Below are positions 30,161 through 37,145 of a stretch of DNA of 37,145 nucleotides, piece after piece. This DNA is from a virus, in IMG/VR virus record IMGVR_UViG_3300017779_000040, positions 1 through 37,145 of that record, one strand, 5' to 3'. The notes under the pieces were generated by a model. The model was not told where the DNA came from. It ran no database searches and saw only the letters and a list, made by a program, of their open reading frames with translations. Each line of letters opens with the position of its first letter. The stretch's first letter is position 1. A program made the translations under genes and the position numbers.

Positions 30161-31474
30161 ATGGCAACTCCACTTAAACTCGAAGGTACAAACGGTGACT
30201 TAAAAGAAATGACCACCGCAGAAGAGAACTATCTTGCGTATCAAGCTGGGGAACAATTAAAGGCATCTGCAAAGACCGAAGTCGGTGCAATCACTGATGC
30301 ATCAAGTGGGAATGAAACTGTCGGTGCATTTACTGATACTCGTTTTAATGAAGCACCAGGCTCTCACGGTTCAATCAACACAACTTCTACCGTCACAACT
30401 TTATATCAGACCGAAGGAACAGCCGCAGAAGACGGTGGAGACTTTAGAAATGCAGTACATCAACAATCTGGAGACGGAGATACGCACAATAGACAACTAC
30501 ATGAATTTACTTCTGCAGAAATGGATACTTTAACAGATAGGTTGGTTGCAACTATTTTTGCAAATGATTATTCAGGTACATATAAATTAGGTTCTTCTGC
30601 ACCAAGTTCAGATTACGACACGCATTTATCTGCAGTCTTTACAGACACCCGAACCGATGCAGGCCCAAGTACAGTCACAGTTGCAACTTATAACATTTAT
30701 CAAAGACAAACCTTTTCTGCACCTACAGCAGTCCGTCCAGTCTCACTCAAAAGAAGTTCTGGGGGTAGTGGTACATTTCAAGGTGTTCAAGAAATGTCAG
30801 ATGCAGAAATCAAATATACTTTTGGACAACGTGCAAAGACTCGTATAATGAACGGTGCAAAAGGTGTTGGAACTTATATCTTAAATAGTTCTGCAACTGG
30901 AGCTCCAAGTGAAACGGGTACATGGGTTGCAAAAGGAACTGCAACCGATACTAGACATACTACCACAGATACAGATTACACGCAAGACTTTGTAGGAACT
31001 TTTGAAACTACTTTTACTGGTACGTTTGTAGGAGAAGCAGGTGGTGTAGTAAACTATGCAGGGCCGACCAACTACGCAGGCCCGACCAATTATGCGGGCC
31101 CGACCAACTATGCAGGCCCAACCAATTATGCAGGCCCAACTAACTATGCGGGAAGAGATGCAAACAATCAAGCAAACAATGCAGGGCCTGGTATAAACAC
31201 TTACAATTCAGTTAACTATCTTGGAGAGGCAAGTGGTGCAGTAAACTATTTAGGAGAAGCGGCTGGTGCGGTTAACTATTTAGGAGAGGCATCGGGTGCA
31301 GTTAACTATCTTGGAGAAACGTCAGGTGCGGTAAACTATGGAGGGCCTGGTACGTATGAACAAGACTTTGTGGGTACTTTTGAAACAACCTTTACTGGAA
31401 ACTTTCTGGGTGCATTGATTAACAATGCAACCGCAACGATTGAAACTTATACACTGTATGTAAGGACTGCATAA
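30161..31474 (+). CDS. Repeat-rich virion structural protein
   Basis: A 437-residue protein typical of marine T4-like virions. The N-terminal half is compact: LKEMTTAEENYLAYQAGEQLKAS, then HEFTSAEMDTLTDRLVATIFANDYSGTYKLG and FQGVQEMSDAEIKYTFGQRAKTRI. The C-terminal half holds three repeat types. There are five NYAGPT units plus a partial (residues 298-333), four NYLGEASGAV-type units (352-391), and two copies of QDFVGTFETTFTG flanking them. The Gly/Tyr/Asn-rich stretch suggests a flexible rod or adhesion surface. It has its own late promoter, so is expressed as part of the fibre set. Synonymous variation between repeat copies indicates selection on the protein. Exact location on the virion is unknown. 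Confidence 0.82.
   Translation: MATPLKLEGTNGDLKEMTTAEENYLAYQAGEQLKASAKTEVGAITDASSGNETVGAFTDTRFNEAPGSHGSINTTSTVTTLYQTEGTAAEDGGDFRNAVHQQSGDGDTHNRQLHEFTSAEMDTLTDRLVATIFANDYSGTYKLGSSAPSSDYDTHLSAVFTDTRTDAGPSTVTVATYNIYQRQTFSAPTAVRPVSLKRSSGGSGTFQGVQEMSDAEIKYTFGQRAKTRIMNGAKGVGTYILNSSATGAPSETGTWVAKGTATDTRHTTTDTDYTQDFVGTFETTFTGTFVGEAGGVVNYAGPTNYAGPTNYAGPTNYAGPTNYAGPTNYAGRDANNQANNAGPGINTYNSVNYLGEASGAVNYLGEAAGAVNYLGEASGAVNYLGETSGAVNYGGPGTYEQDFVGTFETTFTGNFLGALINNATATIETYTLYVRTA
30981..31023 (+). repeat. Direct repeat copy A (QDFVGTFETTFTG)
   Basis: First of two copies of a 13-14 residue coding repeat that bracket the tandem arrays. The second is at about 31361-31403. The copies differ mainly at third codon positions, so the repeat is kept at protein level. 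Confidence 0.8.
31052..31159 (+). repeat. 18-bp tandem repeat array (NYAGPT)
   Basis: Five complete 18-bp units (starting at 31052, 31070, 31088, 31106 and 31124) and a partial sixth encode NYAGPT. The units differ at synonymous sites (AAC/AAT, TAT/TAC, GCA/GCG, GGG/GGC, CCG/CCA). Gly-Pro is always encoded with GGG or GGC. Confidence 0.9.
31214..31333 (+). repeat. 30-bp tandem repeat array (NYLGEASGAV)
   Basis: Four 30-bp units (starting at 31214, 31244, 31274 and 31304) encode NYLGEASGAV, NYLGEAAGAV, NYLGEASGAV and NYLGETSGAV, followed by NYGGPG. The copies vary at third positions. Confidence 0.9.
31361..31403 (+). repeat. Direct repeat copy B (QDFVGTFETTFTG)
   Basis: Second copy of the repeat at 30981-31023, lying after the tandem arrays and preceding the final 25 residues of the protein. 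The module has been duplicated around the repeat region. Confidence 0.8.
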
Positions 31475-31493: not shown

Positions 31494-31949
31494 ATGGACG
31501 GACAAATCGAAGTGACTCCCCAAATTCCAATTAGAGTATGGGATAAAGATGCATTTTGGGATACTCCAAAGAAAAATGTATTAAATTGTATTTCCGAACA
31601 AGAAGAAGGAAATAAAAAGATAAGACAAGTTCACAAATTAATGGAAGCTGACCCACTGTTCAAAGAGTGTGTGGACGCACTCACTCCAGAACATATTGAC
31701 GAAAATACCAAACAAAGAATTGCACGAAAATTTGAAGAACAGAAAAAACAAAAAGAACAGAAAGAAGCAAAAGAAAAGGCAAAGAAAATGGAACAACTGT
31801 TTAATTACAAGTTGGAAACTTTTGAAGTAGAAGAAATAAAACTATCCCGAAACCGTGAATTGAAAAGTAAATTAAGAAGAGCAAAATCTATTCCAGAAGT
31901 AAACCTTTGGGCTCTAAAAATTCTGGACGATTATTTGAATAGTGAGTAA
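31494..31949 (+). CDS. Hypothetical protein with charged coiled coil
   Basis: A 151-residue protein. The N-terminus VTPQIPIRVWDKDAFWDTPKKNVLNCI is distinctive. Residues 65-115 are a Lys/Glu/Gln-rich coiled coil (RIARKFEEQKKQKEQKEAKEKAKKMEQL). The C-terminus returns to a compact helix (SIPEVNLWALKILDDYLNSE). I do not recognise a functional family. It is probably cotranslated with the glycosyltransferase, which begins 8 nt before its stop codon. Its location between a virion protein and the glycosyltransferase suggests an assembly or tailspike chaperone function, but this is speculative. Confidence 0.75.
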   Translation: MDGQIEVTPQIPIRVWDKDAFWDTPKKNVLNCISEQEEGNKKIRQVHKLMEADPLFKECVDALTPEHIDENTKQRIARKFEEQKKQKEQKEAKEKAKKMEQLFNYKLETFEVEEIKLSRNRELKSKLRRAKSIPEVNLWALKILDDYLNSE

Positions 31950-32622
31950 TGGTTATCTAGTAGTTGCATCAAGAAAAGAAAGTTTTTACAGACTTGCAAT
32001 TAATTGTTTAGAGTCTCTTAAAGATTATTATCCAGATGCAAAGTGTTGTCTTGTTACCGAAGAAAGATTTCTAGACGGTAGAGAATATGTTGCAGATGAT
32101 TTAATTTTTTGCGGTGATAATGTTCGTGAAAAGTTATGGGGTATGTCGCAAAGTCCTTACGACACTACCATGTACATAGATGCAGATTGTGAAATAGTTC
32201 ATGAAGATATTGCAACAGTCTTTGATGAATTAAATGGTAATGATGTAGTATTTAATACTCTACCAATAGAAGCAAAACCACTTTATGCAATCTATGATTT
32301 CACTTATAATGACAAACCAGAACACTTTACTTATTGTGGGGGTGTCTGTCTTTATACAAACAAACAGTTTATGACCGATTGGTATCACTTGTATTTAGAA
32401 CAACAAATGGGAATATTCAGACCAAATATGGAGCCTTGGGAAAAACTTAAAGATTTTGACCAAACAACTTTATGGTGGTTATTAAAAAAAGAAAAAGATA
32501 TAAAGATAGGAACATTTAAAGATAATCTTCGTTGGAATTATTATCATGCATATGAAAGATTAAATTTACTCCCAGAACGAAATTTTATTATAAAACATTA
32601 TTCTTACGCAGCTCCTAAGTAA
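31942..32622 (+). CDS. GT-A-type glycosyltransferase
   Basis: A 226-residue protein with the nucleotide-sugar transferase fold. It begins GYLVVASRKESFYRLAINCLESLKDYYPDAKCCLVTEE, the first Rossmann-like unit. A metal-binding D-x-D follows at D80-A-D82 (TMYIDADCEIV). YCGGVCLY (about 131-138) and KHYS near the C-terminus resemble GT8-like features, where a late His helps bind the metal. The start is GTG at 31942; no in-frame ATG retains the first strand. It overlaps the preceding gene by 8 nt and the next ATG follows directly. The acceptor is unknown; phage transferases near fibre genes may modify virion proteins, host surface or DNA. Confidence 0.75.
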   Translation: MSNGYLVVASRKESFYRLAINCLESLKDYYPDAKCCLVTEERFLDGREYVADDLIFCGDNVREKLWGMSQSPYDTTMYIDADCEIVHEDIATVFDELNGNDVVFNTLPIEAKPLYAIYDFTYNDKPEHFTYCGGVCLYTNKQFMTDWYHLYLEQQMGIFRPNMEPWEKLKDFDQTTLWWLLKKEKDIKIGTFKDNLRWNYYHAYERLNLLPERNFIIKHYSYAAPK

Positions 32623-33279
32623 ATGAAAGATATTCCCATAAACAACCCAGAAATTCTGGAAACTTTAGATAAGTTTCTTTGGTTTTATAATGAAAGAGAA
32701 GGAGAAGTTGCACAGTGTAGATTATGGTGTAATAACAAAGATAGAGACCATTTCACTGGAGATAAATATAGAGATAGGGTAATGTCTAGGGGTTCAATAC
32801 ATAATGGGTTTCCTGAGACGGGTTATTACTACAGTTTTAAAACCAATCATGAAGGTTCTGATATAAAACTTACTACAGAAGTCATGAGACATTATAACAC
32901 AATTAATGAAGAATTGCAAGTAAAATTATGTACTAAACATAATTCTCTATGTGCAATGTATCCACCAAAAGGTTTTATCTCATGGCATAACAATGCGAAT
33001 GCGTCTGCATACAATCTTATTTTTACTTGGTCGGAAACTGGAGACGGATACTTTAAATACATTGACGGTTATACTGGAGATGAAATAGTTATTCCAGACA
33101 AGAAAGGGTGGCAATGTAAGGCTGGTTATTTTGGTGCATATAATGAAGAACCCGAAAAATTAGTTTATCATACTGCGTCTACTGACTGTTGGAGAATGAC
33201 AGTTGCATATATGTTCAATCAAGAAGAAATGTCTATCGGTATACAAGAGGACGTAATCGAAGAGATAAAATCTAAATAA
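32623..33279 (+). CDS. 2OG-Fe(II) oxygenase-like protein with altered metal motif
   Basis: A 218-residue protein. The core GFISWHNNANASAYNLIFTWSETGDGYFKYID (about 117-148) and EKLVYHTASTDCWRMTVAYMF (179-199) resembles the double-stranded beta-helix of 2OG oxygenases or AspH-type hydroxylases. H122 and H183 would be the iron ligands and R191 the 2-oxoglutarate anchor. At the usual HxD acidic position there is Asn (H122-N-N124), so this is either a two-His enzyme or inactive. I recognise similar proteins near fibre genes of marine T4-like phages. It starts directly after the glycosyltransferase stop (TAAATG). A pairing of transferase and oxygenase in the fibre region suggests modification of fibre or surface. 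Function is inferred. Confidence 0.6.
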   Translation: MKDIPINNPEILETLDKFLWFYNEREGEVAQCRLWCNNKDRDHFTGDKYRDRVMSRGSIHNGFPETGYYYSFKTNHEGSDIKLTTEVMRHYNTINEELQVKLCTKHNSLCAMYPPKGFISWHNNANASAYNLIFTWSETGDGYFKYIDGYTGDEIVIPDKKGWQCKAGYFGAYNEEPEKLVYHTASTDCWRMTVAYMFNQEEMSIGIQEDVIEEIKSK

Positions 33280-33346: not shown

Positions 33347-33712
33347 ATGGCAAACAACTACGAAGATATCACAATACACCAAGGAACAGACGTTGCAATA
33401 GAACTTCATTTAGTTAAGGAGTCAGACGGAACTGCGTTTGATTTAACAAATTATTCTGCAGCTGCAAAGATGAAACGTAGGTATGGTGACAGTGATAATG
33501 ACCCAGATACCAGAACCTTCAACGCAATTATTCCTACACCCGCAACTGCGGGTATTGTCACATTGAGTATGACAAATGACTCAAGTGCAACTCTTCAAAC
33601 TAGAGGAAGGTATGTGTATGACGTAGAAGTGTCTTTCGTAGACAGTGATAGTAAAACCATAGTACAAAGAGTTGCAGAAGGACAAATAGAAGTAACTCCG
33701 TCCGTGACATAA
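33347..33712 (+). CDS. Small phage beta-sandwich protein (BppU/fibre-associated type)
   Basis: A 121-residue protein. The pattern ITIHQGTDVAIELHL, then DLTNYSAAAKMKRRYGD, then GIVTLSMTNDSSATLQTRGRYVYDVEVSF and RVAEGQIEVTPSVT is familiar from small phage proteins encoded just before tail fibres (baseplate upper protein-like Ig fold). The G-R-Y-V-Y-D-V-E strand is the clearest marker. It lies between a late promoter and the large tail fibre gene, with an AAGGA site joining it to the fibre ATG. It probably forms an adaptor or decoration for the fibre. The exact partner cannot be read from the sequence. Confidence 0.75.
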   Translation: MANNYEDITIHQGTDVAIELHLVKESDGTAFDLTNYSAAAKMKRRYGDSDNDPDTRTFNAIIPTPATAGIVTLSMTNDSSATLQTRGRYVYDVEVSFVDSDSKTIVQRVAEGQIEVTPSVT

Positions 33713-33721
33713 GGATTTTAA

Positions 33722-36700
33722 ATGACAACAAGAAAAATTGTTTTAAAGAAAATTAAAGTCGGTACACCGATTAAAACCGTAACTGCGGGTAGTTTCGGTA
33801 TTAATAACTTAGGTGGAGTAAATACTAGTGGAAGACACACTGGTGCTCTTTTAGTATTTAACCAGTCATCTGGAAATTTTGAACCTGCTGTAATCACTGG
33901 AGACTCAAATCATTTTATTACTTTTGATAGTAGTAGTACTCCAGATACTTTACAAATAAACTTTACAAATGACTCCATATCTGGAAGTCTAATACCTAAA
34001 CTTGATAGTGCATTTGACTTAGGTTCATCTACTAAGAAATGGAGAGATTTATTTCTTAGTGGTTCAACCATAACTTTAGGAGACTTGACAATACAATCCA
34101 CTGGTGGTGGAATAGAAGTTAAAGACTCAGACGGAAATACTTTATTACAAAACATAAAATATATTACAGTAAATGGTGATACTGACATTCTTGCGTATGA
34201 TAGTAGTACTTCAACTTTCACCTTTAATGACTCAGACATTGCAAGAACTGACGAAACAGAAACTTTCCATAAAAATATAATAGTTGCAGATAGTGCTAAC
34301 ATTGCGGGTAATCTGACTGTAGGTGGTAATCTATCGGTCACTGGAGATTTACAATACGATGATGTATCTGCAGATAGTGCTGTATTCTCTGGAAGTGTTG
34401 CAATCGGAAATAATCTGACTGCAGATAGTGCTACGATTAATAAGATTGCAAATACAACTCTTACGGGTAAGAATGCAACTTTTGACTCTGCAACTATTGG
34501 TAATCTTGCAGCTACTAACTTAGTTATCTCTTCGGGAGATAGTGCATTCTTTAATAAAGTAGGAGTCGGAGATTTAGAAGTAGACTCTGCAAACATCGAT
34601 AGACTAACTTTAGACTCTGGACAAGTAAGACAATTATCTACTGGATTTATAAATGCAGACTCGGCCTTCATGGACTCTGCAACGATTTCTACAATTGCAA
34701 CTACTACAATAAATGCAGACCAACAGTTTACTGACTCCGCAACTATTACCAATATTGCGAACTCAGTATTGACTGCAAAAGTAATTACGAATACTACATT
34801 AACTAATGCTACATTAACAAGTGACAGTGCAACTATAGGTAATGTTGCAGTCACTACACAACTAACGGGTAATCAAGCAAACTTTGATAGTGTTGCAAGT
34901 AATACTTTACATGCGACTAATCTTTCTGTAGATAGTGGAGATATACGACAATTATCTGTAGATTTTATAAATGCTGATAGTGCGTTCTTTGATAGTGCAA
35001 CAATTACTAATCTATCTACAACACAAATAACATTCTCACAAGCAACACTTGACTCTGCAACAATTAATACTTTAAATGCAGATAGTTCTGATATCAGACA
35101 GTTTAGTACAGAATTTATAAACTTTGACTCCGCATTCGGAGACAGTGCAACTATAACGAATATTGCAAATACTCAGTTGACTGGAAGTCAAGCAACTTTA
35201 GATAGTGCAACCATAACAAAACTAAATGTCGATAGTTCTGACATAGACCACTTATCTACAGAAGCAATCAACTTTGACAGTGCAACTGGAGATAGTGCAA
35301 CGATAACAAGTATTGCAAACTCTACCTTTACGGGTAAAGTTATTACGGGTACAAATGTTGCGTTTGATAGTGCAACCATAACAAATGTTGCAATTGCAAC
35401 TCAACTGACTGGAGACCAAGCAAGTTTCGATAGTGTTGCGAGTAATACTTTACATGCAACAAATTTAAGTGTAGACAGTGGAGATATAAGACAACTATCA
35501 GTAGACTTTATAAATGCAGATAGTGCTTTCTTAGACTCTGCAACTATTACCACTCTTGCAGTAGGTACTTTAAATATTGATGCAATCAACATTGGTGATA
35601 GTGCAACCTTTACAAACATTGCGTCTAATTCAATAAACACAAATGCATTACAAGTAGATGACCTTACTGTAGACGGTTCTACTATATCTGGTACTGATAT
35701 AACATTCGATATGAGTGGAGATATAACACTTGATGTAGACGGTTCAGAAATATTCTTAAAAGACGGTGGTACACAATTCGGTGTAATTTATAGTCAAGAT
35801 AATAATTTAAACATTAAATCACACTTATCTGACCAAGACATTGTATTTAGAGGTAATGATAATAATAGTGAAATAGTTTCATTAACATTAGATATGTCTG
35901 ATGCTGGTACTGCGATATTTAATCATGACATTTCTCTCGCTGATGACGGTATTGCAAAGTTTGGTACTTCTGACGATTTACAGATTTATCATGATGCTTC
36001 TAATTCTTATTTAAGACATGTTGGTACTGGAAACTTAAATATATCAGGCGATGAAGTTCGTATTTTAAATCAAGCAAATGATGAACTTAAAGCATTATTT
36101 ACAACGAACGGTTCAGTAGAACTTTATTTTGATAATACTAAAAGACTTGAAACAAAAGATAGTGGAGTTGCAATCACTGGTACTTTATCTGTAGACAGTG
36201 CAACCCTAACTAACCTTACTGGAGATAGTGCGACTATCACAAACATTGCAAACTCAGTTCTAACTGCGAAAGCAATCACTGGTACTACAGTTACTACATC
36301 TGGAGATATAGTCTCAAGTGGTACAATAAGAGCTGGTAATCTAAACGTAGACTCTGCAGACATAGACACTATTGCAAAAGCATCTTTACTCGGTGGTACT
36401 GGTGTTACTTATGATAGTAGTTCAGGTGTTATTGCAATTGGACAACCAGTTGCAACAACTGACTCGGTAACTTTCTCTGGATTAACTATTGGTGGAAACC
36501 TAGTTGTCTCAGGAACTACAACGACTGTTGCAACTACTAACACAACTATGACTGACCAACTCTTTGAGTTAGGTAATGGTCGAACTGGAAGTCCAAGTGG
36601 AGATGCGGGTATTGTCATTGAAATGGGAGATGACTCAAATGCATTTATGGGATTTGACCAATCACTTGGTAAATTTATTGTTTCCAGAACAAATGCAACG

Positions 36701-37145
36701 GGTTCATCTACTGGTAATTTAGTACACACCACTGCACCACTAGTTGCAAATACAATAGAAGTAGACTCCGCAGATATAACTAAAGCAGACATAGACTCTG
36801 CAACCGTAGGTAATCTTGCAGTTACTAATTTAGTAGTTTCTAGTGGGGACTCCGCAACTATTACAAGTATTGCAAACTCAGTGTTGACTGCAAAAGTAAT
36901 TACTGCTGACAGTGCAACTATAGGTAATATTGCAGTATCTACTGGATTAAACACTAATTCATTAATAGTAGATGATATTACAATAGACGGTTTCACTATA
37001 TCTCAAGGTGGTGGAAACCTAAGATTAGATATAGGAGGCACATTATTCCTTGATGCAGATACCAAAATAGATTTAGAAGACGGTGGTTCGACTTACGGAA
37101 GATTTAGTATGAATAGTACTAGTTCTAAAGACTTTATTATTCAAT
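33722..37145 (+). CDS. Giant tail fibre protein, 3'-truncated by the window edge
   Basis: ATG at 33722 (AAGGA six bases upstream) opens a frame that I spot-checked at several points and found open to the right edge, about 1141 codons. The N-terminus is MTTRKIVLKKIKVGTPIKTVTAGSFGINNLGGVNTSGRHTGALLVFNQ. The LIPKLDSAFDLGSSTKKWRDLFLSG stretch is typical of marine fibres. Residues about 190-620 and 810-1090 are made of DSATI-x-NIA / TLTG-type short repeats. A 49-codon module is duplicated (34862-35008 and 35405-35551). A later domain (TTTTVATTNTTMTDQLFELGNGRTGSPSGDAGIVIEMGDD, about 930-970) is a signature of cyanophage-type tail fibres. The C-terminus lies outside, so a receptor-binding tip and chaperone cannot be judged. 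Confidence 0.85.
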   Translation, partial: MTTRKIVLKKIKVGTPIKTVTAGSFGINNLGGVNTSGRHTGALLVFNQSSGNFEPAVITGDSNHFITFDSSSTPDTLQINFTNDSISGSLIPKLDSAFDLGSSTKKWRDLFLSGSTITLGDLTIQSTGGGIEVKDSDGNTLLQNIKYITVNGDTDILAYDSSTSTFTFNDSDIARTDETETFHKNIIVADSANIAGNLTVGGNLSVTGDLQYDDVSADSAVFSGSVAIGNNLTADSATINKIANTTLTGKNATFDSATIGNLAATNLVISSGDSAFFNKVGVGDLEVDSANIDRLTLDSGQVRQLSTGFINADSAFMDSATISTIATTTINADQQFTDSATITNIANSVLTAKVITNTTLTNATLTSDSATIGNVAVTTQLTGNQANFDSVASNTLHATNLSVDSGDIRQLSVDFINADSAFFDSATITNLSTTQITFSQATLDSATINTLNADSSDIRQFSTEFINFDSAFGDSATITNIANTQLTGSQATLDSATITKLNVDSSDIDHLSTEAINFDSATGDSATITSIANSTFTGKVITGTNVAFDSATITNVAIATQLTGDQASFDSVASNTLHATNLSVDSGDIRQLSVDFINADSAFLDSATITTLAVGTLNIDAINIGDSATFTNIASNSINTNALQVDDLTVDGSTISGTDITFDMSGDITLDVDGSEIFLKDGGTQFGVIYSQDNNLNIKSHLSDQDIVFRGNDNNSEIVSLTLDMSDAGTAIFNHDISLADDGIAKFGTSDDLQIYHDASNSYLRHVGTGNLNISGDEVRILNQANDELKALFTTNGSVELYFDNTKRLETKDSGVAITGTLSVDSATLTNLTGDSATITNIANSVLTAKAITGTTVTTSGDIVSSGTIRAGNLNVDSADIDTIAKASLLGGTGVTYDSSSGVIAIGQPVATTDSVTFSGLTIGGNLVVSGTTTTVATTNTTMTDQLFELGNGRTGSPSGDAGIVIEMGDDSNAFMGFDQSLGKFIVSRTNATGSSTGNLVHTTAPLVANTIEVDSADITKADIDSATVGNLAVTNLVVSSGDSATITSIANSVLTAKVITADSATIGNIAVSTGLNTNSLIVDDITIDGFTISQGGGNLRLDIGGTLFLDADTKIDLEDGGSTYGRFSMNSTSSKDFIIQ
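34862..35008 (+). repeat. 147-bp fibre module, copy 1
   Basis: Encodes LTGNQANFDSVASNTLHATNLSV and then DSGDIRQLSVDFINADSAFFDSATIT. A second copy lies exactly 543 bp downstream at 35405-35551. The proteins are almost identical while the DNA differs at many third positions. Confidence 0.8.
35405..35551 (+). repeat. 147-bp fibre module, copy 2
   Basis: Second copy of the module at 34862-35008, with LTGDQASFDSVASN and a SAFLDSATIT ending. The third-position divergence shows the duplication is not recent and the protein sequence has been conserved. Confidence 0.8.

Follow-up and report, generated by a model that had tools for sequence, protein, structure and literature searches.

A phage gene cassette that joins a repetitive fibre to a GT8-fold glycosyltransferase and a predicted 2OG-oxygenase-like protein with a fixed HxN site

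INTRODUCTION

What might a phage gain from placing, in its fibre region, a glycosyltransferase gene next to a gene for a 2-oxoglutarate (2OG) oxygenase-like protein that has asparagine where the acidic iron ligand is expected? This pair occurs in a virus record of 37,145 bases (IMGVR_UViG_3300017779_000040; hereafter the window, meaning the whole stretch analysed), which carries T4-like genes for gp32, the baseplate hub, the tail tube, the DNA end protector, and head closure. A sequence-only reading had proposed that the pair decorates fibre or surface proteins by hydroxylation followed by glycosylation. Here, we arrive at the view, with a probability of roughly 0.55, that the two genes form a dedicated system that hydroxylates and glycosylates the repetitive fibre of the same phage.

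RESULTS

The locus is a cassette of four genes on the (+) strand, which encode, in order, a repetitive fibre protein of 437 aa (30161..31474), a helper-like protein of 151 aa (31494..31949), a glycosyltransferase of 226 aa with a GTG start (31942..32622), and an oxygenase-like protein of 218 aa (32623..33279). Since the last ORF begins at the first base past the transferase stop codon, the gapless order described from the sequence, with D80-A-D82 in the first enzyme and H122-N-N124 in the second, was borne out for both ORFs, as was their placement in the fibre region. Specifically, the ORFs upstream of the enzyme pair include a repeat-rich ORF and two S74 endosialidase-chaperone proteins (E = 5.9e-15 and E = 0.0012, the second under the model's cut-off), and the ORF downstream (33347..33712, [+] strand) encodes a fibre-assembly-like protein matching PHROG 1084 (E = 1.5e-20) and PHROG 3304 (L-shaped tail fibre assembly; E = 3.6e-12). 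The downstream gene is a less constant neighbour, present at 59 of 69 loci once those with <700 bases downstream or <5500 upstream, and oxygenase ORFs of <180 aa, are left out. Farther on, a long open frame rich in D-S-A-T-I-type repeats (33722-37144) runs off the window end and probably encodes another structural protein.

We explored the constancy of the cassette in three scans seeded with the oxygenase-like protein, the transferase, and the helper-like protein, keeping the best 80 of 495, 418, and 168 relatives, respectively, and counting identical proteins once; the scans share contigs and thus represent different seeds rather than independent samples. Among the best oxygenase relatives (ORFs of <170 aa left out), the transferase gene lies directly upstream at 69 of 76 distinct loci and directly downstream at one (L048), while two more loci also have it, with either a glutaredoxin-like ORF between (L125) or an overlapping start call (L143). 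It is absent beside the oxygenase gene at L034, L037, and L038, and L040 sits at a contig edge. A repeat fibre is found upstream at 64 of the 66 loci with at least 1.7 kb of upstream DNA, the misses being L034 and L037. The best transferase relatives gave 52 distinct loci, with the oxygenase gene directly downstream in 48, a repeat fibre between the two in 3, and a contig end in 1; all 50 with sufficient DNA have a repeat fibre upstream (at another 2 the DNA was too short). Finally, the best helper relatives gave 49 distinct loci, where both enzymes accompany the helper gene, itself defined by a family alignment, in all 47 with enough DNA (2 are cut by contig ends), and where a script found a repeat fibre upstream in 47 of the 48 with sufficient DNA; the exception, L308, does have one that the script missed. 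We can only guess that the helper-like protein is a fibre chaperone.

The linkage partly reflects shared ancestry of related phages, and at five loci (L048, L125, L204, L234, and L240) the parts stay together despite changed order or inserted genes. The ORF inserted at L125 (6780-6995) has 71 residues and was called glutaredoxin-like by eye. A second repeat-fibre gene lies between the transferase and oxygenase genes at L204 (4820-6955), L234 (4764-7250), and L240 (4131-6638), and these inserted fibres carry repeats of the N-F-L-G-x-T-P and N-Y-x-G-x-R types. A search of 50,697 phage records for the four proteins yielded matches in Phage C48C1 alone, where the order of all four is that seen here; the genome of this phage also contains an epimerase and a UDP-glucose dehydrogenase outside the cassette. 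A scan of bacterial genomes gave a single relative, whose contig also carries phage tail genes. The contig of L149, filed as a Sphingobacteriales MAG, has the cassette together with other phage-like genes and looks like a mis-binned phage contig.

The transferase was modelled with AlphaFold2 on its family alignment (pLDDT 94.1), and the model upholds the GT-A fold assigned from the sequence. Its closest match is glycogenin (Z 18.4 over 188 residues at 3.0 Å), followed by the Skp1 galactosyltransferase (Z 16.1) and LgtC (Z 15.0), the latter an LPS galactosyltransferase. D80 and D82 (D80-A81-D82 codons at 32179..32187, [+] strand), D173, and H219 are present in all 101 distinct transferases, the window included, and Q174 in 100 of them; from the motif roles of GT8 enzymes, we take these residues to be the DxD (D80/D82), the catalytic DQ (D173-Q174), and the C-terminal metal-binding His (H219). 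The GT-A fold and the DxD, DQ, and late His of GT8 are thus all present, while GT8 sequence models gave no match, the only hits being weak ones to GT2 (10/37, best E = 0.0068) and PF03407 (1/37), and searches of Pfam, PHROG, and NCBIfam returned nothing significant.

The AlphaFold2 model of the 218-aa protein, also built on its family alignment (pLDDT 92.3), is a double-stranded beta-helix with eight core strands. A different predicted fold would have spoken against the sequence-only reading, and the model instead upholds a 2OG-oxygenase-like fold, with PHD2 (Z 11.8 over 145 residues at 3.2 Å) and Pseudomonas putida P4H (Z 10.8) as structural matches and the lysine halogenases BesD and HalA at Z about 9.5. 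A Foldseek search against the PDB listed P4H (E = 3.4e-6) and human AspH (E = 4.4e-5), E-values consistent with this fold, at low TM-scores of 0.3-0.4, which weigh against it. When viral models were searched, one uncharacterised phage protein scored best (E = 1.7e-21, TM 0.83), and the next rows, from 3.2e-6, hold many annotated 2OG-Fe(II) oxygenases as well as some polyproteins and other names. By sequence, Pfam, PHROG, and NCBIfam held no significant match, leaving the HxN family undescribed in these libraries, and PDB sequence searches gave implausible short matches alone (best E = 0.043 and 0.4).

Next, we compared the putative active site across 107 distinct oxygenase-like proteins, the window's among them, pooled from the three scans, with ORFs of <180 aa, transferases of <200 aa, and sequences containing X left out of all motif counts. 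Their identity to the window's protein reaches down to 29% (median 45%). H122 and N124 (H122-N123-N124 codons at 32986..32994) and H183 (33169..33171) occur in 107 of 107, R191 in 106 with one gap, and T193 in 105 with one Ser and one gap (R191-x-T193 codons at 33193..33201; all on the [+] strand). The oxygenase-seeded scan used the pattern WH[NS]NANA, which favours Asn, while the other two started from other proteins. In 2OG oxygenases, the ligands of iron and 2OG sit at the end of strand II and the starts of strands VII and VIII; in the model, H122 is the last residue of strand II, and H183 and R191 are the first residues of strands VII and VIII, respectively, and because of these positions we read H122 and H183 as the proximal and candidate distal iron ligands and R191 with T193 as the putative 2OG carboxylate site. 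By the topology of the predicted fold, N124 is proposed to be the equivalent of the usual acid. The family is therefore best described as having an Fe/2OG-oxygenase-like predicted fold with a fixed H-x-N...H site: the distal His and the Arg with Ser/Thr are present, and HxN replaces the canonical HxD/E motif in every member, so we do not file it as a canonical Fe(II)/2OG oxygenase, and neither the HxG of AspH nor the HxA/G of halogenases is found in it. The fixed motifs across 101 transferases and 107 oxygenase-like proteins indicate that both ORFs are real genes.

Two other explanations of the asparagine were discarded. A degenerate pseudo-copy was rejected because Asn is invariant family-wide, including in two extra copies in Phage C48C1. 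D159, also invariant, was considered as a substitute for the acid and set aside, as it sits, in the model, in the turn between strands V and VI, which by the topology of the fold would be the closed end of the barrel. Literature searches (titles and abstract starts) found no HxN or two-His-one-Asn 2OG oxygenase and no invariant Asn as an iron ligand in this superfamily, which counts against the reading of the pair as fibre-modifying enzymes.

The fibre protein of the window resembles its relatives upstream of other enzyme pairs, which share an N-terminal domain, a zone of aromatic repeats, and an ETYTLYVRTA-like end. Selecting by this end, and including truncated ORFs, we collected 88 distinct fibre ORFs that contain 694 runs of four or more tetrapeptides, each beginning with Y or F (5711 tetrapeptides; longest run, 211). 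After the aromatic residue, G accounts for 60% and R for 17% of position 2, and N for 46% and D for 24% of position 3. The fibre of Phage C48C1 reaches 3347 residues. In the window, the N-Y-x-G repeats are spaced, their period having drifted to 6 and to 10 residues: Tandem Repeats Finder and translation revealed 5.4 copies of an 18-base repeat coding N-Y-A-G-P-T (31052..31149) and 4.4 copies of a 30-base repeat coding N-Y-L-G-E-A-S-G-A-V (31209..31339), both on the (+) strand. [ND][YF]xG occurs 15 times in this fibre, compared with 0.6 expected from composition. Among the 24 aromatics of the repeat zone, N/D precedes 62% and G lies two residues after 71%, versus 21% and 11%, respectively, of the 19 aromatics in the N-terminal part, an enrichment that points to [N/D]-[Y/F]-x-G as the shared unit.

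Two candidate target residues were rejected from these counts. Proline makes up 0-5% of the fibre ORFs scored, and the N-Y-A-G-P-T repeats of the window are not general, which speaks against a prolyl target. Tyrosine as the sole target was set aside because Phe, as common as Tyr, occupies 47% of the aromatic positions.

The HxN family also extends beyond the cassette. Phage C48C1 has two more HxN copies, one beside its tail tube gene and one (L161, 4131-4805) directly before a NifU-like Fe-S assembly gene. At L034 (6001-6624), L041 (6001-6621), and L160 (6268-6921), an HxN paralogue directly follows the tail-tube gene, near the major capsid gene, and no transferase was seen beside it at these three loci. 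One contig, 3300027672_000010, has both such a paralogue (L041) and a paired copy (L031). These capsid/tail-tube and NifU-like copies indicate that the family is not confined to the fibre, which counts against the fibre reading.

A second oxygenase with an intact H84-x-D86, noted near gp32 from the sequence, corresponds to the ORF at 1342-1809 (H84-K-D86), which matches PF13640 (E = 3.6e-11) and lies just upstream of gp32 (1905-2828). The viral-contig scan returned five relatives, all at least 91% identical. A profile comparison between the HxN family and this HxD oxygenase gave no relation, with the HxD profile being thin at five near-identical sequences; the two are separate genes, and nothing seen ties them to one pathway.

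DISCUSSION

We name the fibre as the likely substrate of the enzyme pair because of the linkage. In the reaction scheme that we envisage, D80, D82, and probably H219 of the GT8-fold enzyme would bind a divalent metal for the use of a nucleotide sugar, and the oxygenase-like enzyme would hold Fe(II) on H122 and H183 and 2-oxoglutarate on R191/T193. N124, in the place of the acid, could serve as a weak neutral ligand or hold a water, as in AspH. In the fibre, encoded two genes upstream, the [N/D]-[Y/F]-x-G units would be modified. Within this scheme, the favoured refinement, at well below even odds, is beta-hydroxylation of fibre Asn/Asp, the sugar then going onto the hydroxyl so formed or onto Tyr, Thr, or Ser of the same unit; Asn/Asp are favoured because N/D is the common polar position and because AspH, without an acid, acts on Asp/Asn. 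Catalysis, substrate, residue, and step order are what we infer here from predicted folds and from computed residues, linkage, and repeats. The idea of fibre decoration put forward from the sequence stands as the best reading of the four-gene cassette, which supports it better than the sequence alone could, while hydroxylation by an Asn-bearing enzyme, the hydroxylation-first order, and the choice of residue are proposals.

The transferase might instead glycosylate the fibre by itself, with the oxygenase-like protein serving as a non-catalytic chaperone or scaffold that has lost its acidic ligand. The complete absence of the usual acid from the family suits this idea, and the two-gene linkage fits a structural partner and an enzyme equally; against it, both His, the Arg, and the Thr remain almost fixed even in the most divergent members, which a scaffold would not need, and acid-less relatives are active, according to the accessible part of PMC10947486. 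We regard it as unlikely.

Another possibility is that the target of the pair is not the fibre but glycans on the host surface (LPS or capsule), modified, for example, to block superinfection. GT8 enzymes of pelagimyophage host-recognition clusters have been read as host LPS modifiers (PMC7029224) and cyanophage glycosyltransferase/2OG clusters as polysaccharide systems (PMC7824862), as far as the available parts of these sources go, and LgtC is a good fold match to the transferase. However, in every scan the cassette stayed linked to the fibre and to the 151-aa protein, and no other sugar-pathway gene was seen inside it; we consider a host-glycan target quite improbable. A halogenase-type site, by which the fibre would be chlorinated or brominated, is hardly credible: BesD and HalA are among the structural matches and a missing acid makes halide sites, but halogenases use HxA/G, leaving room for the halide (both per the accessible text of PMC10947486), a space that Asn would presumably fill, and AspH lacks the acid yet does not halogenate its substrate in the portion of PMC13168262 available.

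More broadly, and tentatively at somewhat under even odds, the cassette may represent a large undescribed family of phage Fe/2OG oxygenases with a fixed two-His-one-Asn site and a GT8-fold partner that modifies a tetrapeptide-repeat fibre by hydroxylation and glycosylation and is widespread in marine T4-like phages. If so, abundant uncultured marine phages would chemically finish their own fibres, and host recognition, stability, or defence could change. A naturally invariant HxN site would offer a way to ask how far the iron-ligand rule of 2OG oxygenases bends, searches for HxD/E or HxA/G would miss such enzymes, and it would hint that the virion, rather than host LPS, is the target of some glycosyltransferases in phage host-recognition clusters. 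Literature searches (titles and abstract starts) on this phage, on phage tail fibres with a 2OG or prolyl hydroxylase plus a glycosyltransferase, and on tetrapeptide-repeat fibres, returned none describing this system. The individual parts are variants of kinds already known; the novelty lies in the invariant HxN site and the tetrapeptide-repeat fibre.

Several known systems resemble the cassette in part. Phage glycosyltransferases acting on capsids and tail tubes have been reported (PMC10877033); they share with our pair a phage origin and the virion as target (as we infer for the cassette) and differ in modifying other virion proteins, with no oxygenase partner mentioned in the part of that source at hand. 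The transferase resembles glycogenin, of which mimivirus has a paralogue, R707 (PMC9614988, available part), in adopting the GT-A fold along almost its entire length and in its DxD, DQ, and late His, but it is shorter, lacks a Pfam GT8 match, and shows 14-17% identity in the glycogenin fold comparisons. PHD2 and P. putida P4H are the closest solved folds to the oxygenase-like protein, in which two His and the 2OG-type basic residue are kept, whereas they have HxD in place of HxN, share 8-11% identity, and act on Pro, a substrate not expected here. AspH belongs to the same fold class, likewise has no acidic iron ligand, and, in the available descriptions, acts on Asp/Asn in repeated domains; it differs by an HxG motif with a water in the acid's place and no detected sequence relation, and its single-His variants are still active (accessible parts of PMC10947486 and PMC13168262).

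The nearest parallel in design is mimivirus L230, a lysyl hydroxylase and glucosyltransferase acting on collagen-like virus proteins (PMC9614988, available part). Both systems comprise a virus-encoded 2OG-type hydroxylase and a glycosyltransferase with a repetitive structural substrate, as demonstrated for L230 and as would apply to the cassette, where hydroxylase-like and glycosyltransferase genes are linked, though not in one protein, beside a repetitive structural protein. L230 is a single bifunctional protein of an amoeba virus with a His/Asp iron site that acts on Lys in Gly-X-Y (same source), whereas the cassette has two proteins, an HxN site, and [N/D]-[Y/F]-x-G repeats, in a phage.
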